Below are positions 7,007 to 60,234 of a stretch of 64,000 nucleotides of DNA, in pieces. Position 1 is the first letter of the stretch. Each line of letters starts with the position of its first letter. Both the position numbers and the translations under genes were made by a program. This DNA comes from Blastobasis lacticolella. Lineage: Eukaryota > Arthropoda > Insecta > Lepidoptera > Blastobasidae. The notes under the pieces were generated by a model. It searched no databases and had not been told where the DNA came from. It saw only the letters and a program-made list of their open reading frames with translations. The DNA is taken from the NCBI GenBank assembly GCA_905147135.1, contig LR990043.1:7971057-8035056 (forward strand), written 5' to 3'.

Positions 7007-7745
7007 CTGACCTTATTCCTTATCTGGCCTTGGTTATGTCAGAAAAACAAGGAATATCCCAGTCGAATGTTTACAGAGTTCGACCTTCATGCGAGTGAAA
7101 CGCGGGCAGACCACATGCGAACTGAACGGATCGCGAATGGGACTAACTGCTACGAACCCAGTTACTGTACCTACAATAAAGAATTTGAATTTGAAGACCG
7201 ACGAGTAATGACTGCGAGCAGCCCACGTTATTTACGGCAAAGATTGTTAAATAAGATATTTTGGGCTGATAAAGTCGCGAGTTAAAGCCAATCCAGAAAA
7301 AAAAATACAATTTATCTATCTATAAATATACACTAAACAATTACGAATAATCGAGCCGATGTAAGATAAAGGAGTGGATGAAGTTGTCGGCGCAAGCGCA
7401 GATCGGCCGTACGAGATCGTATCGCATGCGACGCTATACGCTCTCTATCTCATTACAATATTCACTCGATAAAGCGTATTTTAGTCGAGTCGATAATAAA
7501 TATTCAGTTAAATTGCAATGCTGTCTTTGGAAGACTACGTGGGTTCTTGTTTACTCTTTGCTTGATCAAATGTTGGGAGGTTCAGCTTCAGGTTATTTAT
7601 TCTAGATGGACCTTGGTGAGAGAATTACAGAAATGTATTTTTAAAAAATTAATGTGAGCGTTTCTTCTTGAATGCAACTGTACATGATAATTTATACTAA
7701 TTTGTAAAGATCGTGTAGACTAATAATAATAATAATAAAAACAAT
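7007..7745. other. Unannotated
   Basis: No recognisable gene or repeat family. A CpG-bearing patch at 7375-7450 has no clear identity. (TAA)n occurs at about 7722-7738. Confidence 0.4.
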
Positions 7746-8094
7746 GGTGTCGCCACAGAAATGAAACAAAAACAGAATCCATGTGTCTTAAGTCATGAGG
7801 GAAGCATAGAAATGGCCGCCATTTTATATGTCTGCGTAAGTTTAGGGTTGCCATATACATGATCCATTTTGCCCTCTTTATGTATTATGTTAGCAATACA
7901 ACTTTACAATAATAAATAAATAAAAATTATTAATTTCTGATTGAAATTATTTATTTAAAAATTCTTAAGTAATGAAATATTTTGATAAGAGGAGTCTCCC
8001 CGAGTACGCTCCATAGAAATAAAGTTTGATCATATTTTCAATATTGCGCATTTCTGGCAGTGTTATTAAAAATAAATAACAGACAGCTGTCCGG

Positions 8095-8545
8095 TGCAAT
8101 TTGTTCTCGTAACCCTCCCGTACCGTATGCCTCCCGTAACCTTCCCGTACCCCTCCCATACCTCTCCTGTCACCTTCCCGTACCTCTCTTGTCACCTTCC
8201 CGTACCCCTCCCGTATCCCTACGGTATGCCTGCCGTACCCCTCCCGTACCCCTGCCGTATCCCTCCCGCAGCCCTGCCACACCTCTCACGTCACCTTCCC
8301 GTACCCCTTCCGTATCCCTACCGTATGCCTGCTGTACCCCTCCCGTAACCCTGCCGTTTCCCTCCCGTACCCCCACCTTATCGTGCTCCCATAATCCGAG
8401 CCGTACCCCTCTCGCAACCCTCCCCTAGGTCTACCGTAATTCTGCCGTGCTCTCCCATAGCCCTGCCGTACGCCTGCCGTTTCCCACCCGTACCCCTACC
8501 TTAGCCTTGTCGTACCCCTGCCGTACCCCTATCCTGCCCTATGTT
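8095..8545. repeat. Minisatellite with about 10-bp unit
   Basis: Imperfect tandem copies of CCCTCCCGTA run for roughly 450 bp, C-rich on the plus strand and G-rich on the minus. Because the unit length is not a multiple of three, open frames appear in several frames (for example 8060-8428); these are artefacts. The array lies inside the P-like element. Confidence 0.9.
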
Positions 8546-9117
8546 CTTATTCTGCTATTCGAGGCGGGTACAAATACATCAAATTATAAAAAACAAAATA
8601 GCTATTCAGTTACCAACCAAGCATCGTAGCCCCTTCGCGGTTGTTAATAAATCCACGTCATCAAAATGTGCACTGCACACGGTACTCGCAGATGATGGGT
8701 TCCAATTGGTTTCTCTTCTACAGTTTCGTATAATTAGAATCCAATAGTGTTTACGGTTTTTATTACTAGGAAACCTATTAAAATAATATAACCCGGTTAA
8801 AATAAAATCGGGATCGAAAATAATAAGGGCTCCGCAGAAAGCGGTGTTACATTATTTAATTATAAAATCGGACTACTATGCTTACATCATAGCAGTACGT
8901 AGGGTAGACTATAATTACAATCATTCAAGTTCTTTTCAGATACGATAGGTAATAAAAATTCGGAAGCTGATCTGAGTCACAAAAATTTAATAAAGAATTC
9001 CCCACTTTATGGGAATTTTCCCGAAAAACAGGTAGTCACATCGTTGTACTTTTGTTAGAAATTTGCACCAAAGTAAATAAAACATTAATAAAAAAAAGTA
9101 GCCCGAATCATAATTAC

Positions 9118-9198
9118 TTATGCGTTGTAGGTAATTCCTCCTGCCTTGTTACATTTTTTCCAGTAACTTTTACACGATTTCACTACACATGACGGCAT
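9118..9198 (-). pseudogene. THAP-domain N-terminal fragment of P-like transposase
   Basis: A minus-strand ATG at 9198 opens 26 codons followed by TAA. The peptide starts MPSC and has Cys4 and Cys9 followed by a basic stretch and a GGIT segment, which matches the opening of THAP zinc fingers (C-x2-4-C near the start, then a glycine-containing strand). The later Cys-x2-His pair and the AVPTIF box are absent, so it cannot fold as a whole domain unless a splice site near the stop joins it to lost sequence. Its position just inside a 31-bp terminus supports P-element ancestry. The fragment is short, so the THAP call rests on pattern plus context. Confidence 0.6.
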
Positions 9199-9365
9199 TT
9201 AAAAATATTTTTCATCGAGGATAAATATGTCCGATCGCTACGAAATGGCGGCGCGTTGTAAGACCCGATGAGTGTATGTCATGTACAACAAAGGAGATTG
9301 TCACACCTTGCAAGCACCACATCTCTTTAAAGTAACATGGATTCTGTTTTTGTTTCATTTCTGTG

Positions 9366-9504
9366 GGTGTCGCTACATATAGGTTAGTGTCGAACAAATA
9401 ACATCTCGGGAAATCTTGTAGGTACGTGGTAAGTTTGAATTTTGGGAAAATAAATAAATCGCATGGTGCCAGGTTTGGACTACGTGCGGAATGGGTCACT
9501 ATAA
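9366..9504 (-). pseudogene. Mariner transposase, C-terminal catalytic fragment
   Basis: Minus-strand translation gives HSARSPNLAPCDLFIFPK, the counterpart of the mariner block HPPYSPDLAP(C/N)D(F/Y)F(L)FP, with the third catalytic aspartate at codon 9458-9460. The fragment stops abruptly at 9504, where the 6.57 kb element begins. The matching N-terminal part resumes at 16074. Downstream of the catalytic block mariner similarity fades before the P-like insertion. No complete frame is left. Confidence 0.8.
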
Positions 9505-9699
9505 AGGCCTTGCCACACACAAAGCTCGGCGCGAGCGCGGCTCGGGCGCGGCGCGATGCTGGCGCGTTGCCTAGGCAACGATCGCACCGCGCTCGCGCCG
9601 CGCTGTCGTTGCCTAGCAACTATCGCGCCGCGCTGTCGTTGCCTAGCAAATATCGCACCGCGCTCGCGCCGAGCTCACGCCACGCCGGCACCGCGCCGC
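9505..9699. repeat. Left GC-rich terminus with X-box-like palindromes
   Basis: A CpG-dense terminal region built of GCGCGAGCG-type units. It contains GTTGCCTAGGCAAC (9566-9579), GTTGCCTAGCAAC (9608-9620) and GTTGCCTAGCAAA (9638-9650). The first two fit the RFX X-box consensus GTNRCC(N0-3)RGYAAC exactly. The longer open frames here are produced by GC content. Confidence 0.8.
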
Positions 9700-10074
9700 C
9701 AGGGGTGGACTAACGAACAAAGCGGGAAAGGCGGCCTGCCCCGGGCCTCTGGTCCAGGGGGGCCTCCAAACGTCTCCAAGTTGCCTTGATCAAATCCTAT
9801 ACAAGGCTTTAAAATATGCTTAGAACATATCGAAGAGGTGGTTCGGAGTTGTGACAGGGGCGTAGCTATCGCCGTATCACTATTCAAACATAATTAAAAT
9901 CAGGGTCGAGGACCCCCTCCGCCAAAGAAGTAATTTTAACTAAATAAATAAAAACACTTAAACATACAAATGTGAACTGAATAAAAAGCTTGTAAAATTA
10001 CATCAAACTTCTTAAACTGGGGGCCTTATAAAGGTTGTCCGCCCCGGGCCTCTGATGGACTTAGTCCGGTACTG
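9700..10074. mobile_element. Candidate hAT-like MITE
   Basis: Left end CAGGGGTGGACTAA and, inverted, right end CAGTACCGGACTAA share CAG...GGACTAA. Further in, both sides carry GCCCCGGGCCTC. Length 375 bp, non-coding. It sits inside the GC-rich terminus of the larger element. I see no clean 8-bp duplication, so the class is tentative. Confidence 0.5.
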
Positions 10075-11460: not shown

Positions 11461-12085
11461 ACTTACACAACCAACTTGTAATCCTGTGCATACACAATAA
11501 GTGGAGCCATACAGATAGTTCATTACATACTCATATACTACACCACTATACACCCCGGGACGGGTCCCAAGGTATACAACGGTGCAACACATGATCATGA
11601 ATACCGTGCGACGGTTGCTCATTGGGTGGACCCAACGAGCAACCGGCACACAGCACTGCATAGGTACAAATCTGTGAATGTCTTTAACTCACACAAGCAA
11701 CCCATATGAGCTAGTCTTGAGCATATATAATAATAAATAGAGCCATATAGATAGATCATTACATACCCATATATTACACCACTATACACCCCGGGACGGG
11801 TCCCAAGGTATACAACGGTACAACACACAAGCATGAATACCGTGCGACGGCTGCTCATTGGGTGGGCCCAACGAGCAACCGCCACACAGCACCACGCAGA
11901 TACACCTCTGTACATGTCTTTTACTTACACAACCAACCCACATGAGCTAATCTTGTGCATATACAATAAGTGGAGCCTATAAAATAATAAATGCAGAATG
12001 CATACATAAAAATGGAGCCATACAGATAGTTCATAACATATCCATATATTACACCACTATACACCCCGAGATGGGTCCCAAGAGA
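11461..12085. repeat. Tandem repeat, about 230-bp unit, 2.6 copies
   Basis: Units start with ACTTACACAACCAAC-like sequence at 11461, 11687 and 11923 and share CACTATACACCCCGGGACGGG. The first two units contain a strong hairpin (11613-11644 and 11849-11880). The third carries a small internal duplication around a GGAGCC boundary and is truncated. Minus-strand frames 11449-11661 and 11619-11915 encode near-identical peptides because the DNA is repeated; no known domain. Confidence 0.85.
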
Positions 12086-12883: not shown

Positions 12884-13080
12884 ACGTTGTCCTGTCTACA
12901 CGTCTTTAATTTGAAAATTTCAAACTTTTTTTAATAAGCTAAAACATTCTGACAAAATTGTGAATCTAAACCATTCCCAGATCCCCTTGAACACTCACAA
13001 AAAATTTCATCAAAATCGGTCCAGTCGTTTGAGAGAAGTTCAGTGACATACACACTCACAGAAGAATTATATATATAAAG
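12884..13080 (+). repeat. Common insect repeat tail (CGGTCCAGTCGTTTGA type)
   Basis: Starts CTAGCGGACCCGACAGACG and ends with ATCAAAATCGGTCCAGTCG, a run of ACACACTCACA and ATATATATAAAG. This layout is widespread in insect genomes as the end of a non-autonomous repeat. Assignment to LINE or Helitron type is uncertain. Confidence 0.6.
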
Positions 13081-14367
13081 ATATTACTCGAGGATCGCCA
13101 GCTGATCAGTGACCGTCAATATGGCTTTCGTCATGGTCGCTCAGCTGGTGACCTTCTTGTGTACCTAACACACCGGTGGGCTGAGGCTGTCGAGAGCAAG
13201 GGGGAGGCTCTGGCTGTCGGTCTTGATATAGCCAAGGCATTTGATCGGGTCTGGCACAGGGCACTGCTAACAAAACTCCCGAAGTACGGTATCCCCGAGG
13301 GGCTCTGCAATTGGGTATCCAGCTTTCTGTCTGGACGGAGCATCCAAGTCGTTGTCGACGGATGCTGCTCCGATACCAAGACCATTAATTCTGGAGTACC
13401 CCAAGGTTCAGTGCTATCTCCCACGCTGTTTCTTCTGCATATCAATGATATGCTGAATATTCCCAGTATTCATTGCTATGCAGATGACAGTACTGGAGAT
13501 GCTTGTTATACTGGCCGTGCGAATATCCCTCGTTCCGTGGTGTCGGAAAGCCGAATAAGACTTGTGTCAGAGATTGAACACTCCTTGGAGCAAGTTGCTC
13601 ACTGGGGCAGACTGAACCTAGTGGAATTCAACCCTTCAAAGACACAGGTCTGCGCATTTTCCGCCAAAAAGGATCCCTTTGTCAATGTGCCGAAGTTCCA
13701 AGGGACACCCCTTTCCATCTCAAAAAGTATCGGGATCCTTGGTGTCGACATATCGGATAACGTGCGCTTCCGGAGTCACCTAGAAGGTAAGGCCAAACTG
13801 GCTTCGAAAAAGCTTGGCGCGCTTAACCGGTCCAGGCGATACTTCACCCCAGGGCAGCGCCTGCTGCTGTACAAGGCACAGGTGGGGCCTCATATGGAGT
13901 ATTGTTCCCATCTTTGGGCCGGCGAAACTGCCGACCTGCTTAATCCTTTGGACTCCGTACAGAGACGCGCCGTACGAATTGTCGACGATCCCATACAAAC
14001 AAGCAAGTTAGAACCACTGGCTAACCGAAGGGACTTTGGCTCCCTGTGTGTGTTCTATCGGCTGTACAATGGGGAGTGTTCCGAGGAACTTTTCGATCTG
14101 GTGCCCACAGCACAATTCCGCCATCGCACCACCCGCCGTGGGCTGGGTACTCATCCCCACTACGTAGACCCTCTGTTGGTCACCACGCGAAGGTTCGAAA
14201 GAACGTTTCTCGCTCGTACGATTCGGATGTGGAATGAGCTCCCAGCCACAGTGTTTCCTTTGGACTATGACATGGGATCGTTCAAGAGGTATATTAGAGG
14301 TCTCTTTAGAGGCGGGCAACGCATTGGTGACTCCCCTGGTGTTGCTGATGTCCATAGGCGGCGGTGA
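13081..14367 (+). CDS. Jockey-type ORF2 reverse transcriptase, partial
   Basis: Encodes the C-terminal part of a non-LTR reverse transcriptase, the enzyme that copies element RNA at the target site. The frame is open from the truncation point at 13081, upstream of the GTG at 13159, which is not a real start. RT blocks in order, numbered from that GTG: QYGFRHGRSAGDL just upstream, the first catalytic Asp in GLDIAKAFD (D23), SGVPQGSVLSPTLF (78-91) and the YADD box (107-110). All three active-site aspartates are present. After the RT come about 290 residues of the C-terminal extension with PHMEYCSHLW and RMWNELPATVFP, typical of jockey-clade proteins. The endonuclease and early RT are missing, so the protein cannot act alone. 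The frame is uninterrupted, which suggests recent insertion. Confidence 0.92.
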   Translation: MLLEDRQLISDRQYGFRHGRSAGDLLVYLTHRWAEAVESKGEALAVGLDIAKAFDRVWHRALLTKLPKYGIPEGLCNWVSSFLSGRSIQVVVDGCCSDTKTINSGVPQGSVLSPTLFLLHINDMLNIPSIHCYADDSTGDACYTGRANIPRSVVSESRIRLVSEIEHSLEQVAHWGRLNLVEFNPSKTQVCAFSAKKDPFVNVPKFQGTPLSISKSIGILGVDISDNVRFRSHLEGKAKLASKKLGALNRSRRYFTPGQRLLLYKAQVGPHMEYCSHLWAGETADLLNPLDSVQRRAVRIVDDPIQTSKLEPLANRRDFGSLCVFYRLYNGECSEELFDLVPTAQFRHRTTRRGLGTHPHYVDPLLVTTRRFERTFLARTIRMWNELPATVFPLDYDMGSFKRYIRGLFRGGQRIGDSPGVADVHRRR

Positions 14368-29093: not shown

Positions 29094-30071
29094 TTAACTT
29101 AAAATATGTAAAAAGTTTGGGCCGTGTGGAAGCGTACCCAAGATGCTGGCAGCATTACCTCTCTGAATAGCAATGCTTATTCTTTGTGCGAGGTAGCTGC
29201 CAGCTCTTCGGTCACCTGTGGTGTCGACCAATTTCTTCGTAATTTCTCTGTATAAAGAGAGCGCTCCGGGGCCCCACGGACCCAGGGTCTCGACACCAAA
29301 TGCAACAAAATTGTATTGGGTGCCGATACCCCGGTATTTAATAATTTTTTGCCTTTCAGCTGTCTCAGCCGCAGCAGCAACCTTTTTCGAAGTAAATGGC
29401 AGATGGGAGGGTGCCAGAGTGTCAACACACGTTGCATCCCACACTAAGGCCCGACCCATCTTCCAAGGGATGAGCGACATTCCGTCCGGTCTCTTACCAT
29501 CGTCACGTGCGATACCGTTCGGCTCTAGAATAGCCGGCACGTTGACGGTAGCAAGAGAGCGGCGCAAAATGTCGTTCAGGGCTGCGTGGCGTGAAAAGCG
29601 TCCTGCGCTTTTTTGGCAGGATAGACCGTGGTGTCCCAGGTGGTCGACATCCACTCCACACGGGCATTTATGTGGGGTACAGACCTCAGCACCAAGGCGG
29701 AGAGCCACGGCCAGACGAAAAGTGGAGTTATCCAAAAAAGTGCCGGTATTGGCCGATGGGTAGGCCTGAAGCCACTGGCCAGACTCCCACCTGGACACAG
29801 CTTCCAACCTGGCACGGGTAGAGTCGGTGCAGTTACCAAACAGGGTCGAACGTATAAATTTAGATTGAATATCATCCCAGCTCTTTTGACTTTTAGGGCA
29901 TAATGGTGAACATGGACTCGGGACAGCCGTAAGCCAAACGTTTGTAGCCTCGCCCAGATACGCCACCTCAAAGTTTGGGACGGAAGGATTTAGAATTCTT
30001 TCTATGAGGTTGGACGTGCTGTGGATTGAAGATAAAAAAGCAGGTAAAGATACGTTTGAAATTAATACATA
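29094..30071 (-). CDS. Retroelement C-terminal protein with endonuclease-like domain, partial
   Basis: An uninterrupted minus-strand frame, open from 30071 to the stop at 29094; the GTG at 29966 is not a natural start, and the 5' part of the element is missing. Numbering from that GTG: a Cys/His cluster (C96, C101, C103, H113, C117, H127) in PHKCPCGVDVDHLGHHGLSC, then E148, RPDG (159-162) and LVWDATCVD with D177. Spacing and order resemble the restriction-like endonuclease found at the C-terminus of some non-LTR retrotransposons (Cys/His knuckle, then PD...D). Proteins of this kind are abundant and unnamed in many invertebrate genomes. Element class and function are inferred; intactness suggests a young copy. 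Confidence 0.6.
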   Translation of the reverse strand, partial: YVLISNVSLPAFLSSIHSTSNLIERILNPSVPNFEVAYLGEATNVWLTAVPSPCSPLCPKSQKSWDDIQSKFIRSTLFGNCTDSTRARLEAVSRWESGQWLQAYPSANTGTFLDNSTFRLAVALRLGAEVCTPHKCPCGVDVDHLGHHGLSCQKSAGRFSRHAALNDILRRSLATVNVPAILEPNGIARDDGKRPDGMSLIPWKMGRALVWDATCVDTLAPSHLPFTSKKVAAAAETAERQKIIKYRGIGTQYNFVAFGVETLGPWGPGALSLYREITKKLVDTTGDRRAGSYLAQRISIAIQRGNAASILGTLPHGPNFLHILS

Positions 30072-31185: not shown

Positions 31186-31681
31186 TACCGAAAGTATCGA
31201 ATTGCCCTATTTCCCCGGTACCAGAGTTAGCACATCACCAAGAACTCACTTTCCCCCACGGCACCGGTAACAACCCCTAACCATAACCAATCTCCCGAAG
31301 CCTACACCCAAAGCCATCGAAACTCGCATCCCCAGCAAACGAGACTGACTTGTCTAGTATCTAGACTCTTCAATCTTGATTTCTAGAAAAGCAACAAAGG
31401 CCCTGCCGCTTGGCGCGAGCTAATTAAAAATATCCTTAGTACTGAAAAGTACCGAATTTCCCTATTTTCCCGGTACCAGAGCTACCACATCACCAGGAAT
31501 CCAGTTTCCCCTACAGCACCGGTAATGCAACCCCTTACAACCAATCTCCCGAAGCCCTACAACCGAAGCCGTCGAAACGCATCCCCAGCAAACGAGACCG
31601 ACTCGTCTAGAATCTAGACCGCCCGATCTTGATTCCTAGAAAAGCAACAAAGGGCCTGCCGCTTGGCGCGAGCTAATTGAA
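31186..31681. repeat. Tandem duplication of a 242-bp unit
   Basis: Unit 1 at 31186-31427 and unit 2 at 31440-31681, in direct orientation. Shared blocks: CCCGGTACCAGAG, CACATCACCA, CAATCTCCCGAAGCC, CATCCCCAGCAAACGAGAC, TAGAAAAGCAACAAAG and CTGCCGCTTGGCGCGAGC followed by TAATT. Non-coding. The last block is the best conserved. Confidence 0.88.
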
Positions 31682-60160: not shown

Positions 60161-60228
60161 CTAAGTTAAGAGTAACTTAGCTTAGTTTAGTTTTCTAAGT
60201 TAAGAGTAACTTAGCTTAGTTTAGTTTT
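60161..60228. repeat. 34-bp unit repeated twice
   Basis: CTAAGTTAAGAGTAACTTAG followed by CTTAGTTTAGTTTT occurs at 60161-60194 and 60195-60228 without change. AAAACTAAACTAG just upstream is its partial inverse, so a MITE end is likely. Confidence 0.8.
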
Positions 60229-60234
60229 CATTTA

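Follow-up and report, generated by a model that had tools for sequence, protein, structure and literature searches.

What kind of sequence is the 1612-bp unit at positions 7754–9365 of this window (the whole stretch of 64,000 nucleotides that was analysed), and how could it have come to lie there? The unit is bounded by terminal inverted repeats (TIRs) and an 8-bp direct repeat, a target-site duplication (TSD). Its borders are as follows.

7746–7753, unstranded: left copy of the TSD, GGTGTCGC, identical to 9366–9373
7754–7784, plus strand: left TIR, 31 bp, perfect, first bases CA
9335–9365, minus strand: right TIR, 31 bp, perfect
9366–9373, unstranded: right copy of the TSD, GGTGTCGC, identical to 7746–7753

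The TIR sequence is CACAGAAATGAAACAAAAACAGAATCCATGT, with the opening letters CACAGAAATG; the ends begin with CACAG and are identical to each other at 31/31 positions. The TSD comprises exactly 8 bp and is neither longer nor shiftable (7745 is T and 9365 is G; 7754 is C and 9374 is T); moving the boundary one base outward breaks the direct repeat. The perfect 31-bp inverted repeats and the identical 8-bp flanks, which were both claimed in a preliminary description of this DNA, are therefore confirmed, the flanks being exact and not extendable. The window was scanned for perfect inverted repeats of at least 12 bp, with words of at least three different letters, placed directly within an 8-bp direct repeat and no more than 8 kb apart. 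This structure was found once in the whole window and in none of 20 dinucleotide shuffles. No further copies of the TIRs are present elsewhere in the window, and a 22-bp end pattern had no matches in viral contigs and none in genome contigs, which were bacterial and archaeal and offered a remote chance of a match. The identical TIRs and TSD copies suggest that the insertion may be young.

Members of the P transposon superfamily have 8-bp TSDs, TIRs (27–31 bp long in flies and mosquitoes) and a gene that opens with a THAP domain. In the unit, GGTGTCGC is found on both flanks, the TIRs are 31 bp long and the opening THAP domain is recognised by Pfam, though the gene lacks a GT donor. PMC2646287 quotes GGCCAGAC as the consensus for Drosophila P, with which the TSD agrees at only 3/8 positions.

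The left subterminal region contains one further symmetrical element.

7810–7824, plus strand: perfect subterminal palindrome, AAATGGC-C-GCCATTT (sequence)

The 10-bp half of the palindrome, GCCGCCATTT, is located at 7815–7824 and has an inverted copy at 9243–9252; the two copies lie 61 bp and 113 bp from their respective ends. The 10-bp subterminal inverted repeat had been presented as a sign of a P element. It does exist, but a shared word of at least 10 bp between the two 200-bp subtermini was obtained in 79 of 1000 shuffles; this is chance level, and the repeat was dropped as support for the P assignment. The palindrome includes GCCGCCAT, which resembles the YY1/Pho site, and the THAP start codon follows the inverted GCCGCCATTT copy at a distance of about 45 bp.

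The coding remnants of the element are on the minus strand.

9124–9198, minus strand: putative THAP exon 1, MPSCVVKSCKSYWKKCNKAGGITYN, with C4 and C9 of the zinc site (tblastn)
8775–9121, minus strand: putative THAP-gene intron of about 347 bp, terminating 3′ with TTTTAATAG (continuity of GITYH-(R/K)FP in relatives)
8615–8774, minus strand: putative THAP exon 2, FPSNKNRKHYW...CSAHFDDVDLLTTAKGLRCLV, with C-x2-H of the zinc site (Pfam and tblastn)

The MPSC opening reported earlier is indeed there, its ATG being located at 9198 (minus strand), at a distance of 167 bp from the end; the second THAP half (8774–8615, minus strand) had been overlooked. Exon 2 alone, in the open frame 8609–8851, matches Pfam PF05485 with E = 4.3e-7 and 31 bits (cut-off 23.9). 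Exon 1 alone (26 aa) has no Pfam match, and the joined exons match THAP with E = 3.4e-10 and 41 bits. The best PDB match of the THAP is THAP domain-containing protein 2 (2d8r, E = 0.00081). The Pfam scan of the element comprised the five frames touching it; the exon 2 frame also resembled Agglutinin at 15 bits (E = 0.028), which is below the cut-off of 25 and was taken as chance.

A tblastn search with 11 relatives as queries (designated below by P numbers; E up to 1) revealed two blocks inside the element, 9198–9124 (MPSCVVKSCKSYWKKCNKAGGITYN) and 8782–8609/8615 (RFPSNKNRKHYW to GLRCLV). The exon 2 block was matched by 10 of the 11 relatives, with 92.4 bits for P0006; the exception, P0010, is without a THAP. 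The exon 1 block was matched by 8 of the 11. The best score from 100 shuffled windows over the 11 queries was 32.0 bits, so the five matches at 37.4–40.4 bits (P0001, P0002, P0003, P0006 and P0009) count, and the remaining three (P0004, P0011 and P0012; 26.6–28.5 bits), being at shuffle level, do not. The motif GITYH-(R/K)FP is unbroken in P0001–P0003 and P0006, with P0004 deviating there; because of this continuity, the simplest explanation for the 347 bp separating the blocks is an intron.

The end of exon 1 has no GT donor. An in-frame stop is situated right behind it, and the next downstream GT (9117) lies beyond that stop. Beyond V79 the copy no longer resembles its relatives, of which P0001–P0004 and P0006 continue with PxxIPK at this point; the loss of similarity may represent the edge of a lost interior or an old exon end. 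An exon end at V79 is conceivable because a GT (GTTG|GTAACT) occurs within three bases. We infer that an entire THAP domain is not produced from the window copy. At most, a peptide of about 26 residues is predicted from the THAP remnant, and so no working DNA-binding protein, and the copy probably makes no working protein of any kind.

These features are relevant to a KP-like role, in which a deleted element would still make a THAP protein that binds the ends of relatives and represses their transposition. According to PMC7776569, small non-autonomous P elements of Drosophila are able to code for repressors, one of them being the 207-aa KP protein. Exon 2 of the window copy is open across its domain half, and four short THAP proteins of the same family are annotated in Loxostege, three of them under one prefix. 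Such a role is nevertheless very unlikely, since the donor at the end of exon 1 is missing and tblastn found no match to the coil-like dimer stretch of the relatives; the stop immediately behind exon 1 and the end of similarity after V79 also speak against it.

The relatives were found among predicted moth proteins. A search with the joined THAP yielded four matches from four candidates, all of them Loxostege sticticalis THAP proteins with 63–70% identity. They are encoded on four different longest contigs and bear two annotation prefixes, three proteins sharing one; as two prefixes occur, some of the proteins could be alleles. A search with exon 2 among transposase-length proteins yielded one candidate, also the one match, P0006 of Chilo suppressalis, which has 73% identity to the window THAP over 79 residues. 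Loxostege and Chilo both belong to the Crambidae, and these matches by themselves suggest that the window is lepidopteran, probably from a moth. P0006 contains a THAP, a zinc-finger-associated domain (ZAD; zf-AD, E = 4e-7) and a coil-like stretch, which is a long helix in the AlphaFold model. This model, based on a 4-row alignment, has a mean pLDDT of 44; only the helix at about 300–350 is confident, and the model is too poor for the ZAD.

A search seeded with P0006 recovered seven proteins, including P0006 itself, from 1547 candidates. P0007, also from Chilo, combines most of a THAP, a zf-AD and TNP-like_RNaseH_N in one predicted protein cut short in the RNase H region; its identity to the window copy in exon 2 is 67%. 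P0010 (Chilo; partial, without the N terminus, on a 3.6-kb contig) comprises the Tnp_P_element HTH, RNaseH_N, GBD, RNaseH_C and THAP9_C. Where P0007 and P0010 overlap, they are 92% identical over 87 aa and 85% identical over 86 aa. Thus, in public gene models, a P-type RNase H is present in proteins with the same type of THAP, directly in P0007 and, via the overlap, in P0010. P0010 matches Transposable element P transposase (6p5a) with E = 5.2e-27, and its FDE and QDxxE blocks, which we take to be the catalytic blocks, are aligned. P0008 (Parnassius apollo) has a THAP and two zf-AD stretches, P0009 (Aricia agestis) has two THAPs and no ZAD, and P0011 (Chilo) and P0012 are P-type proteins with a THAP and without a ZAD. 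The arrangement of two ZADs around a THAP in P0008, and of two THAPs in a row in P0009, looks as if gene models had joined tandem or nested P-type genes. Searches for relatives of P0006 and P0010 in viral contigs returned 12 and 29 pattern matches, respectively, none of which was confirmed by tblastn.

Could the two THAP halves stem from a THAP-ZAD zinc-finger gene of the host, a piece of which lies between inverted repeats by chance? Host genes with THAP and ZAD are known in Drosophila, namely CG6689 and CG10431, with the CG6689 THAP in the first two exons (PMC9810180). This origin is very improbable, given that the halves are bracketed by perfect 31-bp TIRs and an exact TSD, a combination seen in none of the 20 shuffles. 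Moreover, the four Loxostege proteins lie on four different longest contigs, with the reservation on alleles made above, and one Chilo relative runs into a P-type RNase H.

The element might instead be a small transposon of another superfamily with 8-bp TSDs (hAT, Merlin, MULE, Zisupton or Novosib) that acquired two THAP exons, whether from a host gene or from a P gene, the THAP being irrelevant to its movement. Duplications of 8 bp are common to several superfamilies and not exclusive to P, and tblastn with the relatives found no catalytic domain in the element, the Pfam scan being confined to the five frames that touch it. The position of the THAP gene and the nature of its relatives make this origin unlikely: the gene starts 167 bp from one end and is directed into the element, which is the arrangement to be expected of a gene belonging to it, and a close relative continues into a P-type RNase H domain. 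For hAT in particular, the hallmarks are a TSD of the form nTnnnnAn and ends of the form CAGRG; GGTGTCGC is unlike the former and CACAG is unlike the latter.

The interior also contains a repeat that had been overlooked in the preliminary description.

8113–8530 (approximate), plus strand: degenerate 11-bp tandem array, unit CCCTCCCGTAC, weaker at about 8383–8460

The GC content is 61% at 8101–8545, as against 31% at 7754–8100 and 32% at 8546–8614. Near-consensus units of the array (at least 9/11) occur 31 times in the window on both strands, 20 of them inside the element. According to tblastn, the array stretch has no similarity to the 11 relatives. THAP1-type sites were also considered in the array: the THAP1 site consensus, TNNGGGCA, is found 0 times in the element and 14 times in the window, where chance would give 26 occurrences, and this candidate was rejected. 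In tblastn with the 11 relatives, none of their ZAD, coil-like helix, HTH, RNase H and GTP-binding parts was confidently matched in the window. The THAP was the only part matched inside the element at E up to 1; neither the RNase H catalytic domain with its GTP-binding insertion nor a ZAD behind the THAP was found in this copy.

The unit 7754–9365 is, then, likely a non-autonomous transposon of the P superfamily, devoid of its former interior and inserted here, in a cut-and-paste manner, by a P-type transposase acting in trans. The two THAP halves would be exons of a gene belonging to the element itself. Its full-length ancestor would have lost the interior, for instance through interrupted gap repair, and would have kept the ends and the THAP exons. 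The transposase of a full-length relative would recognise the 31-bp ends and mobilise the deleted copy, and the 8-bp stagger of that transposase would generate the TSD. Possibly, this enzyme comes from the moth family whose predicted transposases have an extra zinc-binding domain. The link between the ends and a P transposase runs via the THAP domain alone. The earlier P-element-like assignment stands at the level of the superfamily, through the Pfam THAP match and the relatives with P-transposase domains; it does not stand for a complete element, since the window copy is non-autonomous and without a catalytic domain.

The preliminary description had also considered P-like elements in a moth or butterfly notable. 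Such elements have already been reported for Lepidoptera: according to PMC6327564, the P superfamily is present in every species surveyed there, four lepidopterans included, and PMC7764229 reports it in Helicoverpa armigera. Being already in print, P elements in Lepidoptera are ordinary as such, and the insertion by itself, being a crippled P element, is equally ordinary for an insect order in which P elements are on record. The interest of the element is that its THAP leads to predicted moth proteins joining a THAP, a ZAD and P-transposase parts.

Otherwise, the ZAD is the N-terminal dimer module of arthropod host ZAD zinc-finger proteins. A tree was built from 12 THAP domains over 86 columns. 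It groups the window copy with the two ZAD-bearing Chilo proteins and the four Loxostege proteins at a support of 92/91, which is moderate, being below the tool's mark of 95/80. The second THAP of P0009 adjoins this group, and P0011, P0012, P0008 and the first THAP of P0009 are placed across a 100/99 branch from it. The branch of P0008 is long and its placement unsure; P0008 bears a ZAD, yet its THAP is outside the Chilo ZAD group, which goes against a simple story. No single full-length THAP-ZAD-P transposase appeared among these proteins, since P0010 is partial and P0007 ends inside the RNase H region. The THAP-ZAD fusion rests on automatic public gene models and lies outside the window.

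The observations can be combined in a joint reading, which we propose tentatively as a serious candidate somewhat short of probable. The element would be a deletion product of an undescribed lepidopteran P lineage with a THAP-ZAD-coil-P transposase, in which the ZAD is placed between the THAP and the coil and probably provides an extra dimer contact when the ends are paired. THAP-ZAD-P transposons could be the source or the sink of THAP-ZAD joins in host genes, such as Drosophila CG6689. If the fusion is real, it gives a well-studied transposase a new arrangement of domains, possibly with an added dimer module for end pairing, and the origin of THAP-ZAD host regulators becomes testable by comparing transposons with host genes. 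Among the papers listed by the literature searches, none names a THAP-ZAD P transposase in its title or abstract opening, which does not prove its absence; of these papers, PMC9810180 joins THAP and ZAD, its subject being host genes.

Further features were noted elsewhere in the window. At 7517–7657 (plus strand), the left flank weakly resembles the P-transposase RNase H region in P0010, and P0011 matches at the same place (E = 0.80). A P-transposase fossil at 7517–7597 (plus strand; P0010, 48% identity over 27 aa, E = 0.027) was not adopted as a reading: 1 of 100 shuffled windows equalled it with that query alone, and 11 queries were run. Pfam found nothing in the three forward frames of 7300–7753, nor in the two ORFs there. 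The left-flank similarity could be a decayed older P copy beside the insertion. Other tblastn matches outside the element were weaker (E from 0.050 to 0.96). A GC-rich repetitive stretch at 9520–9700 begins about 150 bp to the right of the insertion and includes a period-30 array at 9593–9664. Two-copy tandem repeats are present at 11496–11969 (236 bp), 31191–31678 (253 bp) and 60161–60229 (34 bp, 100% identical). The 444-aa open frame at 13033–14364 (plus strand) matches reverse transcriptase PF00078 with E = 2e-24 and is likely a fragment of a non-LTR retrotransposon. Another open frame (325 aa; 29097–30071, minus strand) has a single Pfam match under the cut-off and presumably resembles the C-terminal part of a retrotransposon polyprotein.

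Among known systems, the P elements of Anopheles gambiae described in PMC1562414 have TIRs of 27–31 bp and 8-bp TSDs, and their P-MITEs are 205–2450 bp long with unrelated interiors. The window element is like these masters and MITEs in TIR length, TSD, size range, a MITE interior unlike P and the presence of a THAP in the masters (PMC1562414). The Anopheles P-MITEs share 114–198 bp in all with their masters, whereas the window copy additionally keeps both THAP halves and, unlike them, has an 11-bp tandem array inside (PMC1562414).

In Drosophila melanogaster, KP and the other non-autonomous P elements described in PMC7776569 likewise have 31-bp TIRs and an 8-bp TSD and have kept their ends while losing the interior. 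KP encodes a protein of 207 aa; the THAP gene of the window, in contrast, is without a GT donor after exon 1, and no coil-like stretch was found (PMC7776569). The zebrafish Pdre2/THAP9 elements are similar in their 8-bp TSD, ends beginning with CA, THAP transposase family and internally deleted copies, as presented in PMC10983969 and PMC7776569. According to the same sources, Pdre2 has 13-bp TIRs and 12-bp subterminal repeats, whereas the window element has 31-bp TIRs and no subterminal repeat beyond chance.

The P-like element in a proviral segment of the Glyptapanteles bracovirus also has perfect TIRs (49 bp) within a perfect 8-bp TSD and a P-like transposase; it differs in being coding, 11.6 kb in size and flanked by the TSD AAATTCCA (PMC2646287). 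Similar in the THAP and, if the window is lepidopteran, from the same order of insects are the Chilo suppressalis proteins P0006 (73%) and P0007 (67% in exon 2). The Chilo proteins differ from the window copy in carrying a ZAD (P0006 and P0007) and P-transposase domains (P0007 and P0010), all of which are absent from it. On the side of host genes, the THAP of Drosophila CG6689, which according to PMC9810180 extends over the first two exons, parallels the two-part THAP of the window element.
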